Assembly: GCF_030397665.1 (NCBI RefSeq)
Contig: NZ_JAPUBT010000012.1
Location: forward strand, 124,001 to 188,000
DNA from: Janthinobacterium sp. SUN073
Lineage (GTDB): Bacteria > Pseudomonadota > Gammaproteobacteria > Burkholderiales > Burkholderiaceae_D
Reading direction: 5' to 3'
Length of the DNA: 64,000 nt
The notes under the pieces were generated by a model. That model worked only from the letters and a program-made list of their open reading frames with translations, did not search any database and was not told the DNA's origin. This document shows, piece by piece, positions 10,854 to 42,514 of this stretch (positions are counted from its first letter, which is position 1; each line of letters opens with the position of its first letter). Position numbers and translations under genes: made by a program.

Positions 10854-11396
10854 ATGTCCATATTAAATATCCTGCGTTACCCCGATCCGCGCCTGCACAC
10901 GATCGCCAAGCCCGTCACCGAATTTGGCGAGCGCCTGCAAACCCTGATCGACGACATGGCCGAAACCATGTACGACGCCCCAGGCGTCGGCCTGGCAGCG
11001 TCGCAAGTGGACGCGCATATCCAGATGATGGTGATCGACATCACCGAAGAGAAAAACCAGCTGCAAGTGTTCGTCAACCCGGAAATCACCTGGGCCAGCG
11101 AAGAAAAGCAGGTCTACGACGAAGGTTGTTTGTCCGTGCCCGGCGTCTACGATGGCGTCGAGCGTCCGGCCCGCATCAAGGTGCGCGCCCTGGACCGCCA
11201 CGGCAAGCAGTTCGAGCTGGAAGCCGATGGCTTGCTGGCCGTCTGCATCCAGCATGAGATGGATCATTTGCTGGGCAAGGTATTCGTCGAATACCTGTCG
11301 CCACTCAAGCGCAACCGCATCAAGGCCAAGATGATCAAGGAAATCCGTGGTCTCGAGCGCGAAGCGAGTCTGCGCGCTCAGAACCGCCGCTTCTAA
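10854..11396 (+). CDS. def: Peptide deformylase
   Basis: A 180-residue metalloenzyme that removes the formyl group from the N-terminal methionine of new proteins. All three signature motifs are present: GVGLAASQ (residues about 43-50), EGCLSVPG (cysteine metal ligand) and QHEMDH (two histidine ligands and the catalytic glutamate). It is encoded just before fmt, whose product adds the formyl group to initiator tRNA; the pairing is widely conserved. Here a 116-bp repeated element follows the def stop codon directly and separates the two genes. Confidence 0.97.
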
Positions 11397-11512
11397 CACC
11401 TGACCAAACCTACTGCGCGTCGCGACTTGCGGCCTGCGATGCTCACTGTGCTCCAGCACAGTTCCGCTTCTCAGCCACAATTCGCTTCCGCTCGCTACGG
11501 TTTTGTAAGGTG
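11397..11512 (+). repeat. 116-bp structured element, family A, copy 1
   Basis: Starts at the base after the def stop codon. It begins CACCTGACCAAACCTACTGC and ends CTACGGTTTTGTAAGGTG, so the ends are inverted repeats. In the middle, ACTGTGCT-CC-AGCACAGT forms an 8-bp hairpin, and TTGCGGCC can pair with AGCCACAA further out. Two more copies of the same length are at 20004-20119 and 42399-42514. Confidence 0.85.
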
Positions 11513-11624
11513 TTAAAGGAGTTTTTGCAGTACTGCTGATAGACTAAGCAGCAACAGTCGCCGTAACACCATGCCAGCCTGGCGCCTCCGGCGCGGGCCT
11601 GCGCACCTCACGTCAAGGAACCAT

Positions 11625-20003: not shown

Positions 20004-20119
20004 CACCTGACAAAACCGTAGCGAGCGGAAGGAAGAGGTGGCCGAGAAGCGGAGCCGTACTTTAGTACGGTGAGCATCGCAAGCCGCCTATGCCGACGCG
20101 CAGTAGGTTTGGTCAGGTG
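20004..20119 (-). repeat. 116-bp structured element, family A, copy 2
   Basis: On the minus strand it begins 4 bases after the stop codon of the EAL-HDOD gene and reads CACCTGACCAAACCTACTGC to CTACGGTTTTGTCAGGTG. Its central hairpin is CCGTACT-AA-AGTACGG, where the other copies have CTGTGCT and AGCACAG: two base pairs have been replaced on both sides. Same length and same orientation to the upstream gene as the other copies. Confidence 0.85.
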
Positions 20120-20123
20120 CCAA

Positions 20124-21404
20124 CTACAGAGCGTAGCGGACTACGTTGTCGCTCCACTCGTAGGCGGCCATTTCCAGCTCCACCAGGTCGTCCGGCGACA
20201 TGGCCAGGTCGCGCAGGGTCGGCACGATCTCGCCTTCCATGTCTTCGATGCGCTCGATGCATTCGGCCAGGCGCAGCAGGTCGCCGTAGAAGCCTTCGCG
20301 CGACAGCAGCGCTTCGGCCACTTCATCGATCACTTCGATCTGGCTGAGGATTTCCGACATCGGCACGCCGAACAGGGTATCCATCAGGGACATGATGCCG
20401 ACCGTAAAGGCGATATCGGCCGAATGGGAATGGTTCGGGCGCAGTTTATGCGCGAGCAACTCCAGCAAACGGCCGCGCGTGGTGGCCAGCATCAGCAGCG
20501 GCGTCATGCTATGGCCGCGCTTGCTTGGCTCCGCGTACAGCATGATTTGCAGCCAGCGCTGCAGTTGGCGGCGGCCCAGCACGGTCACGGCCTGGCTCAG
20601 CGAATCGATGCGCTGGCGCGCCCCCACGGCCGGTGTATTCACCAAACGCAACAGGTTCAAAGCCAGCGACACGTCGCGCTTGATGGCGCGCTCGATATCC
20701 ATGTTGTCGGCATCCGACGTCACCAGAGTCATCAGTTCCATGACGGCCAGTTGCGACGGCGACAGCTTCTTGCCCGTCATGATGGCGGGCTTGGCGAAAT
20801 AATAACCCTGGAAATAATCGAAGCCCAGGTCCAGGCCTGACTTGAATTCTTCGCGCGTCTCGACCTTTTCCGCCACCAGTTTCTTGTGTTCCCGTTTGAA
20901 ACGGGGCGCCAGCGCCGCCAGCACTTTCGGGTCGACCGTGCTCATGTCCATCTTGACGTACTGCACCAGCGGCAACAATTCCTGCACTTGTGCCGTATCG
21001 GCCACCACGTTTTCCAGCGCGAAAGTAAAACCATGGCCCACCAGTTCACTGATGCGCGCGCGCACTTCCGGCGTGACGGGCATCGATTCGACGATTTCCA
21101 GCACGACTTTTTCACGCGGCAGGAAAACAAAGATATCGCTCATGATCACGTCGGCATCGACGTTGACGAAACCGAGCGCGTCGCCGATCACCTTTTCCAT
21201 CCCCAGTTGGGAAGCGTGGGCGATCACGGACGCCGTGGCGGACAGGTCGCTGGTAATGTTGGCGGGGCCGACCGGAGCGTTGCGGAATAGCAACTCATAG
21301 CCGAACAGGGCCTGGTTGCGGTCGAGAATAGGTTGTCGACCCAGATAGAACTCGCGCACGCGCAAGGGTTTCGGGGTGATGTCATTGCTGGAAATATCGA
21401 TCAT
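20124..21404 (-). CDS. EAL-HDOD signalling protein, probably without phosphodiesterase activity
   Basis: A 426-residue protein with an N-terminal EAL-type domain (about 20-225) and a C-terminal HDOD domain (about 225-420), the YuxH-type pairing. EAL landmarks are partly kept: YELLFRN, VVLEIVES, YVKMDMS, VAEKVET, FQGYYFAKP. The DDFGTG loop, which supplies metal-binding aspartates, is replaced by LENVVAD, so hydrolysis of cyclic di-GMP is unlikely; a ligand-sensing or protein-interaction role is more likely. The ATG chosen is 17 codons before the first conserved block; longer readings start at TTG. The stop is followed by the 116-bp element. Confidence 0.85.
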   Translation of the reverse strand: MIDISSNDITPKPLRVREFYLGRQPILDRNQALFGYELLFRNAPVGPANITSDLSATASVIAHASQLGMEKVIGDALGFVNVDADVIMSDIFVFLPREKVVLEIVESMPVTPEVRARISELVGHGFTFALENVVADTAQVQELLPLVQYVKMDMSTVDPKVLAALAPRFKREHKKLVAEKVETREEFKSGLDLGFDYFQGYYFAKPAIMTGKKLSPSQLAVMELMTLVTSDADNMDIERAIKRDVSLALNLLRLVNTPAVGARQRIDSLSQAVTVLGRRQLQRWLQIMLYAEPSKRGHSMTPLLMLATTRGRLLELLAHKLRPNHSHSADIAFTVGIMSLMDTLFGVPMSEILSQIEVIDEVAEALLSREGFYGDLLRLAECIERIEDMEGEIVPTLRDLAMSPDDLVELEMAAYEWSDNVVRYAL

Positions 21405-21541
21405 TAAGTCTTCATCAATCAGGTCGAGTGACACCGGCCGCGCGGTGCCCGCATCAAGGTTCACTATTGACAATACTTTAGCTGAATTTCGCCCGCGCTG
21501 TGGGTATTTTGGCAGCAATCCGGCGTATTGTCGTCAACAAA

Positions 21542-40696: not shown

Positions 40697-42091
<1,395 letters not shown>

Positions 42092-42394
42092 ATGTCCCTG
42101 ACACTCTCCGACGTAAAACGCATCGCCCACCTGGCACAACTCGAAATGGCCGACGATCAGGCCGTCACGTCCCTGGCCCAATTGAACAAGATTTTTGCCC
42201 TGGCGGAACAAATGCAAGCCGTCAATACCGATGGCGTGGCCCCCCTGAGCCACCCGCTGGCTGCCCATATGGACAATATCGCCCTGCGCCTGCGCGAAGA
42301 CGTCGCCACGGAAAAAAATCACCGCGACGCCTACCAGGCCGTGGCGCCGAAAGTCCAGGATGGCCTGTATCTCGTCCCCAAGGTTATCGAGTAA
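42092..42394 (+). CDS. gatC: Aspartyl/glutamyl-tRNA amidotransferase subunit C
   Basis: A 100-residue subunit that stabilises the GatA-GatB complex. It begins [19 protein letters not shown] and contains PLSHPL and LREDV, typical of GatC. The complex turns misacylated Glu-tRNA-Gln or Asp-tRNA-Asn into the correct aminoacyl-tRNA. The 116-bp element follows 4 bases after the stop and separates gatC from gatA. Confidence 0.94.
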
Positions 42395-42398
42395 CTGG

Positions 42399-42514
42399 CA
42401 CCTGACATAAGCTACTGCGCGTCGCGATTTGCGGCCTCCGATGCTCACTGTGCTAAAGCACAGCTCCGCTTCTCGGCCACAACTCACTTCCGCTCGCTAC
42501 GCTTCTGTCAGGCG
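42399..42514 (+). repeat. 116-bp structured element, family A, copy 3
   Basis: Starts 4 bases after the gatC stop and reads CACCTGACATAAGCTACTGC to CTACGCTTCTGTCAGGCG. The inner end pair AAGC/GCTT replaces AACC/GGTT of the other copies, a change on both sides of the stem. The central hairpin is CTGTGCT-AA-AGCACAG; TTGCGGCC faces GGCCACAA with 7 of 8 pairs. Confidence 0.85.

Follow-up and report, generated by a model that had tools for sequence, protein, structure and literature searches.

Known palindromic repeats of bacterial genomes

Integron attC sites lie behind the stop codon of a cassette, fold on one strand and are read by structure; their core sites are R'' (RYYYAAC) and R' (GTTRRRY). 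REPs are strand-specific hairpins of single-stranded DNA. The IS5/IS1031 group and the Tourist MITEs of PIF/Harbinger generate 3-bp TNA or TWA duplications and have fixed terminal inverted repeats (TIRs), and are not known to show strand polarity. REPs and BIMEs, which are associated with RAYT (Y1) transposases, have been described as high-copy extragenic palindromes located mostly downstream of genes (PMC2817692, PMC3733652). Bacterial MITEs including ERIC, Correia/NEMIS, and RUP are shorter than 200 bp, possess inverted repeats, duplicate their target and are mostly intergenic, and the majority of them are bounded by terminal TA and TIRs (PMC2229807). YPAL of Yersinia is a palindromic mobile element of 168 bp without terminal TA, for which empty and filled sites are known; its target duplications range from 3 to 26 bp, it is described as being transcribed or translated together with upstream genes, and strand polarity goes unmentioned in the sections of that account dealing with it (PMC2229807). 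The Burkholderiales-1 motif was proposed as a structure candidate in Burkholderiales, and appears in the relevant part of that report without an Rfam accession (Weinberg 2010; PMC2864571).

The element in Janthinobacterium sp. SUN073

The window, i.e., the whole stretch of 64,000 nucleotides that was analysed, carries three copies of a non-coding element of about 116 bases with no coding capacity. Our results point to an undescribed kind of small mobile element. Throughout, "sense" denotes the strand of the upstream gene and F the opposite strand. The features in the window are as follows.

11394 to 11396, plus strand: stop codon TAA of def (ORF 10854-11396, peptide deformylase), abutting copy 1
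11397 to 11512, plus strand: copy 1, in the intergenic region between def and fmt; folding strand, minus
11514 to 11516, plus strand: TAA to the right of copy 1, a TNA and possible target duplication, judging from the sequence and the TNA enrichment
20004 to 20119, minus strand: copy 2; folding strand, plus
20124 to 20126, minus strand: stop codon TAG of the gene upstream of copy 2 (ORF 20124-21518, weak EAL-domain match), 4 nt away
42392 to 42394, plus strand: stop codon TAA of gatC (ORF 41945-42394, GatC), 4 nt ahead of copy 3
42399 to 42514, plus strand: copy 3, in the intergenic region between gatC and gatA; folding strand, minus

A sequence-only reading of this DNA had reported three copies of exactly 116 bp at these places, and all of them are present as claimed, aligning without gaps inside the element. 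The paired changes that it had singled out (CTGTGCT/AGCACAG to CCGTACT/AGTACGG, AACC/GGTT to AAGC/GCTT, and TTG/CAA to AGG/CCT) can also be seen in the copy alignment. Searching the whole genome with copy 1 yielded 40 matches, while a covariance model built on 39 own-genome copies found 53 full-length copies and two internally deleted ones (82 rows of output, 27 of which were the reverse strands of the same places).

Covariation among dispersed copies

Covariation was assessed in an alignment of 39 own-genome copies, from which one of the 40 first listed (L029) was left out because of its divergent flanks. In the named 34-pair structure, 135 cells carried a double change compared with 44.6 (sd 7.9) after shuffling, a value reached by none of 500 shuffles, and 92.7% of cells were paired compared with 84.1% in the shuffled alignments. 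Sliding the partner by 1-3 columns brought pairing down to 33-40%. Further pair types were weakly raised (41 vs 36.9, reached by 22 of 500 shuffles), and an unsupervised RNAalifold fold of the 39-copy alignment showed a double change in 16 of 34 pairs. The paired stem changes are not due to chance. The proposal that stems change together with their partners among dispersed copies, made from three copies, thus holds genome-wide, and the unpaired words said to be conserved are conserved in the copy alignments. Selection on a folded strand, which had been put forward as selection on a folded RNA or a DNA hairpin, is likewise supported, but the selected strand is opposite to the orientation in which the element had been read, and the element is most probably more than a non-coding RNA, namely a mobile repeat whose target is a 3-bp TNA, with DNA being favoured.

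Conversion or replacement may have transferred part of the between-copy covariation in a single step. At an orthologous site in sister species (L333 and L342), the flanks are ~97-98% identical while many stem pairs differ on both sides; because several compensatory changes separate two copies with such similar flanks, conversion or replacement is the simplest reading there. At another pair of sites (L351/L358), the element is identical over its length.

Anatomy of the hairpin

A conserved core of ~90 nt is flanked by arms of ~17 nt. From the outside inward, the element comprises often a TNA, the ~17-nt arm, CTACTGCGCG opposite CGCTCGCTACG, a second stem, GATGCTC opposite CGCTTCTC, and an apical hairpin of the CCGTAC..GTACGG or CTGTGC..GCACAG type. 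On F this corresponds to an outer stem of ~17 bp of free sequence, followed by an internal loop containing two GTAG words, the second stem, an asymmetric internal loop (GAGAAGCG/GAGCATCG), and the apical hairpin of the CCGTAC..GTACGG type.

Between genera the core words are kept and the arms are changed yet complementary, and the arms vary within genera too. For the 126 copies from the genus, an arm pairs with its own partner at 13.4 of 16 positions and with that of another copy at 10.2; the corresponding values are 13.8 and 6.4 of 16 for 65 copies from other genera, and 31 further copies of unlisted origin were tallied apart. The arms are almost free in sequence and complementary within each copy. 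Among the 208 apical loops scored of 222, ~77 are T-NN-A and 48 are G-N-A-N (together about 117-125), while GNRA accounts for ~10 (8 of which are also G-N-A-N) and UNCG for 2.

Several variants of the hairpin were encountered. A 14-bp insert is present in the apical stem of copies at L032, L027 (2772-2901), L117, L125, L174, and L271, where L271 has a second, inverted insert on the 3' side of the same element. This insert is a mini-hairpin with a covarying 3-bp stem and a fixed loop (GCC-TCGGC-GGC-CCC, GGC-TCGGC-GCC-CCC, GAC-TCGGC-GTC-CCC), and it looks like a smaller mobile hairpin nested in the element. Mini forms with internal deletions, in which the outer stem and some of the core words are retained, occur at L250-L259, L287, and L393. 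Two elements stand head to tail in a Zoogloea MAG (L123, 655-903), and a group II intron match lies further along that locus.

Strand polarity

Mismatches in the outer stem are distributed unequally between the two strands. Read in sense, A.C outnumbers G.T by 98 to 29, and pyrimidine-pyrimidine outnumbers purine-purine by 154 to 45 (174/175 copies). An A.C mismatch in sense is a G.T pair on F, and strand-symmetric mutation would give as many A.C as G.T, so that the excess of A.C in sense indicates that the strand kept folded is F. The A.C bias stays when positions 5-6 are left out (96 vs 24, all copies); the pyrimidine bias then vanishes (48 vs 45, all copies), and hence rests mainly on one conserved C.T position. 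Since the copies share ancestry and core, these raw counts overstate independence, for which we corrected in part by counting each distinct context once (A.C 58 vs G.T 24; pyrimidine-pyrimidine 71 vs purine-purine 31) and by taking other genera alone (43 vs 10 and 56 vs 13, respectively, no positions omitted). In addition, the folding energy of F is below that of sense in 169 of 174 copies under RNA parameters and in 173 of 174 under DNA parameters. The fold under selection is that of the strand opposing the upstream gene, and not of its mRNA.

We also considered polarity as a by-product of avoiding hairpins in mRNA, which was not supported: where the left neighbour has the direction of F (21 copies), the bias persists (A.C 12, G.T 1) and F is lower in 21/21, so polarity is not simply mRNA-hairpin avoidance. 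The start of the neighbouring gene is 6 to 2071 nt away in these copies, with five within 10 nt. No replication-strand bias was found, with 27 co-directional and 30 head-on copies among the matches listed (five genomes, assumed to be numbered from the origin).

Position behind stop codons and probable target site

In this genome, a co-directional stop codon lies within 7 nt of the element in 32 of 40 copies (open frames of at least 80 codons). Across 116 sources, in which gene contexts were assigned with a simple codon-usage gene caller, the stop codon of the upstream gene is located at -9 to +8 nt in 76 of the 86 copies with a co-directional upstream gene, with a peak at -3 (22 copies). With E as the element, 112 copies are arranged as >E> (52), >E< (32), <E< (16), and <E> (3), the other 9 contexts being incomplete; both neighbours oppose F in 52 of the 112.

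Another site lies between phoU and the gene of an ABC ATPase, presumably pstB. It is occupied in three genomes of Massilia and in one of another genus (L132, L152, L161, L068), and the copy in this last sampled genome is its single one. This would be an old site, either retained or repeatedly used.

Occupancy of orthologous sites is patchy. The def-fmt site is occupied in 6 of 30 orthologous loci of the genus, and the def stop codon is TAA in 19 and TGA in 5 of the 24 unoccupied ones. At the gatC-gatA site, 6 of 30 loci have a full element and 1 an internally deleted one. At the site of copy 2, the element is present in 10 of 30 loci, a different, GTAG-type REP in 15, and neither at the stop codon in 5. 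This REP (GTCGGATTAG..CTAATCCGAC), carried by other species of the genus where copy 2 would be (L307-L315, L317, L319, L320, L325, L326, L328), overlaps the TAG stop codon with its GTAG tag in 14 of the 15 loci.

Comparison of two sister species covered 21 sites, for 20 of which a counterpart was found. Two pairs show an exact duplication, namely CCGC TAA GTTGCC vs TAA-element-TAA (L394/L044) and TTC TAA GCA vs TAA-element-TAA (L396/L361), and a third is near-exact with one base off (AAA TAA TTAC vs TAA-element-TGA; L389/L353). Duplications are probable in two more, L390/L334, where the TGA is not the stop codon, and L398/L354. The other pairs were both occupied, consisted of half or mini forms, had deletions, or were too diverged; the right-hand TNA is not adjacent to the stem in some, including L337/L383, L357/L385, and L359/L400. 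In a further pair, L331/L332, which comes from the orthologous loci above, TGA flanks the element on the left but TGT on the right. Judging from the empty and occupied site pairs together with these TNA duplications (two exact, one near-exact, and two probable of 20), the element is most likely mobile, and few cases support a 3-bp duplication on insertion.

TNA is enriched at an equal distance on both sides of the element, at which it was found on the left in 69 and on the right in 73 of 214 non-redundant copies, compared with 2-35 at the other tabulated distances; most copies have no TNA at the exact peak distance. Left and right TNA are the same in 40 of 93 copies vs 26 expected, a modest excess. 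Stop codons occupy the peak distance 70 times, and 59 of these are TAA or TGA, while some abutting stop codons are TAG, which is not a TNA.

Distribution and database searches

Within the genus, 37 of 40 genomes have matches and three have none, the rows per matching genome ranging from 1 to at least 88 with reverse-strand echoes counted. Under stricter filters, matches were obtained in 79 of the 145 genomes of the family and in 32 of its 44 sampled genera, the own genus counted. The named pattern scan retrieved at least 115 stretches, and among the 80 matches listed 33 are from Janthinobacterium, with the others including Massilia, Telluria, Pseudoduganella, Herbaspirillum, Ralstonia, Variovorax, Undibacterium, Zoogloea, Azoarcus, Uliginosibacterium, Lautropia, Gallionellaceae, and Rhodocyclaceae. 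Of these 80, the covariance model confirmed 79, including one truncated at a contig end; the sole listed stretch that it did not support came from a MAG labelled Actinobacteria.

The sequence-only reading had recognised no named family, in agreement with the Rfam searches, which gave no match over any copy examined: there was none in the window, none for copy 1 even with E values as high as 5, and, in 15 loci of other genera, four matches that did not overlap a copy. Plasmid and phage collections contained no match to copy 1. Viral contigs contained no complete core word pair when searched with the core pattern; 120 stretches had the 14-base word, in none of them with the core words within 160 bases, and the right word gave 11 matches, one of which is a lone right half. 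No paper on this repeat was found in the open-access literature, which is weak evidence of absence, and a 17-base word of the element was absent from the papers searched.

Search for a mobilising partner

Neither a transposase nor a gene-carrying relative was found among neighbouring genes, Y1 regions, own-genome matches to the end word, or viral contigs. When neighbouring open reading frames of 110 loci were compared all-against-all, and members of some of the 14 largest clusters were annotated, the annotated clusters proved to be ABC transporters, PhoU, histidine kinases, LysR regulators, and short-chain dehydrogenases, with two lacking a family; several clusters arose from frames that run across the element. 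Those recurrent neighbours that were annotated belong to common paralogous families, and a rarer partner may lie among the other clusters.

Y1 transposases were rejected as the partner, since all 40 genomes of the genus have their genes whatever the copy number of the element. The complete element was absent from the eight Y1 regions examined (two of this genome and six of other genomes of the genus), four of which contain the 9-base left-core word alone, never with the right-core or loop words. A Y1 transposase gene of this genome (L242, around 1300) adjoins another palindrome, GGGTCGGACCC..GGGTCCGACCC, which occurs again at L415 and is probably a separate REP family of this genome.

The end word has 75 matches with at most one mismatch in this genome, compared with ~7 expected from the control. 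The two exact matches that fall beyond the 53 copies proved to be a mini copy in one case and a half or mini copy in the other, and the three one-mismatch matches examined had no complementary arm within 5 kb.

Interpretation

Our preferred explanation, to which we assign a probability of roughly 0.55, is a non-autonomous mobile palindromic element that is distributed across Betaproteobacteria and whose recognised form is a single strand of one polarity in its folded state. A candidate protein acting in trans would read the folded F strand through the conserved core, and insertion at a TNA trinucleotide would duplicate it. TAA and TGA stop codons are good targets because each is a TNA at the end of a gene and a 3-bp duplication leaves the stop intact, while insertions within genes would be lost by selection. 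The orientation could be set by a preference for TRA, the middle purine being favoured on the left, and TAG stop codons, not being TNA, would need a shifted target or a later change. Such an enzyme could account for the free arms, fixed core, polarity, target, and position at stop codons; any effect on host mRNA is putative. We put forward more tentatively, as something that may well prove otherwise, that the ends are defined by complementarity alone, that the antisense fold is read via the core of the internal loop, that stop codons serve as safe havens, and that the element has its own recombinase working on an attC-like principle.

Among the alternatives, an ordinary MITE of a TNA-targeting DDE transposon, of an IS5/IS1031-like or Tourist-like group, would have moved as double-stranded DNA with the palindrome as a long imperfect TIR. 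TNA flanks with 3-bp duplications, the lack of coding capacity, and the occurrence of internally deleted forms would all be expected of it, but we consider it unlikely, because the arms share no sequence between genera though they pair, the polarity of mismatches and folding energy is unexpected for double-stranded recognition, and no IS with such ends was seen at the end-word matches inspected in this genome.

Selection could instead act on a structured RNA transcribed from F, belonging either to a family of small RNAs or to a mobile element of retro type. Tolerance of G.U on F, internal loops that are conserved and rich in purine, and the strong folds of F as RNA are consistent with this explanation. 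Nevertheless, single-stranded DNA is favoured over RNA as the selected form, because both neighbours run against F in the 52 of 112 contexts given above, no promoter-like conservation was visible by eye in the aligned flanks outside the element, and the apical loops are not mainly GNRA or UNCG, their T-NN-A and G-N-A-N types being ones that we take to lean to DNA; an RNA from F is accordingly rather unlikely.

A sense element in the 3'-UTR of mRNA, serving the upstream gene as a stabiliser or processing site like transcribed ERIC or NEMIS, would fit its place right after stop codons in sense, also between genes of the same direction (def-fmt, gatC-gatA, and ABC ATPase-phoU), but is very improbable given that sense is the worse folder in 169 of 174 copies and that only some orthologous loci are occupied (6, 7 counting the internally deleted form, and 10 of 30 at the three sites). 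The least probable explanation, a solitary integron attC-like site or a REP mobilised by RAYT, shares with the element the folding of one strand, the position behind stop codons, the GTAG words in the core, and the presence of REPs of another family behind the same stop, yet there is no R' box (GTTRRRY), right-flank positions 17 and 19 outward from the core being T in 105 and A in 129 of 222 copies, the size is 116 bp and not 20-40, and neither the ubiquity of Y1 genes regardless of copy number nor the eight Y1 regions without a complete element speaks for RAYT.

If recognition of a folded single strand is true, this would be a bacterial family of mobile repeats whose termini are conserved in structure and not in sequence, and whose polarity is readable from mismatch statistics alone. 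It would explain a repeat of many Betaproteobacteria that is placed between core genes (def-fmt, gatC-gatA, before phoU), and it would make the hunt for the recombinase directly testable with short oligonucleotides. The asymmetry between A.C and G.T would offer a cheap general test for the selected strand of any palindromic repeat.

Comparison with known systems

The Burkholderiales-1 motif, compared by description, is a candidate earlier sighting that could in principle be the same element. The element is similar to attC in that it folds on one strand, judging from polarity and folding counts, but differs in having no R' box in 222 copies, in being dispersed behind core genes, and in its long conserved core. 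A 3-bp TNA duplication as in the IS5/IS1031 type may be shared by the element, for which TNA enrichment and two exact and one near-exact duplications of 20 pairs were observed; the fixed TIRs of that type are a difference. YPAL is likewise a mobile palindrome with empty and filled sites, and the present element differs from it in its length of 116 bp, its 3-bp TNA target, and its strand polarity. As in MITEs, the element is short and non-coding, with complementary ends and target duplication (two exact and one near-exact of 20 pairs). It departs from them in its sequence-free arms, TNA target, and selection of one strand, while fixed ends shared with an autonomous IS, a further feature of MITEs, were not seen at the own-genome end-word matches inspected.

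The likeness to REPs lies in its being an extragenic high-copy palindrome, and behind the stop codon next to copy 2, 15 of the 30 loci compared carry a GTAG-type REP. While REPs of the GTAG and CGTC superfamilies are 20-40 bp long with a terminal GTAG or CGTC tag, the element is 116 bp with GTAG only inside its core on F, and is further distinguished by conserved internal loops, sequence-free arms, TNA flanks, and no link to Y1 genes. The element would by analogy work like attC or a REP and move like a MITE, but it lacks a defining feature of each of the three.
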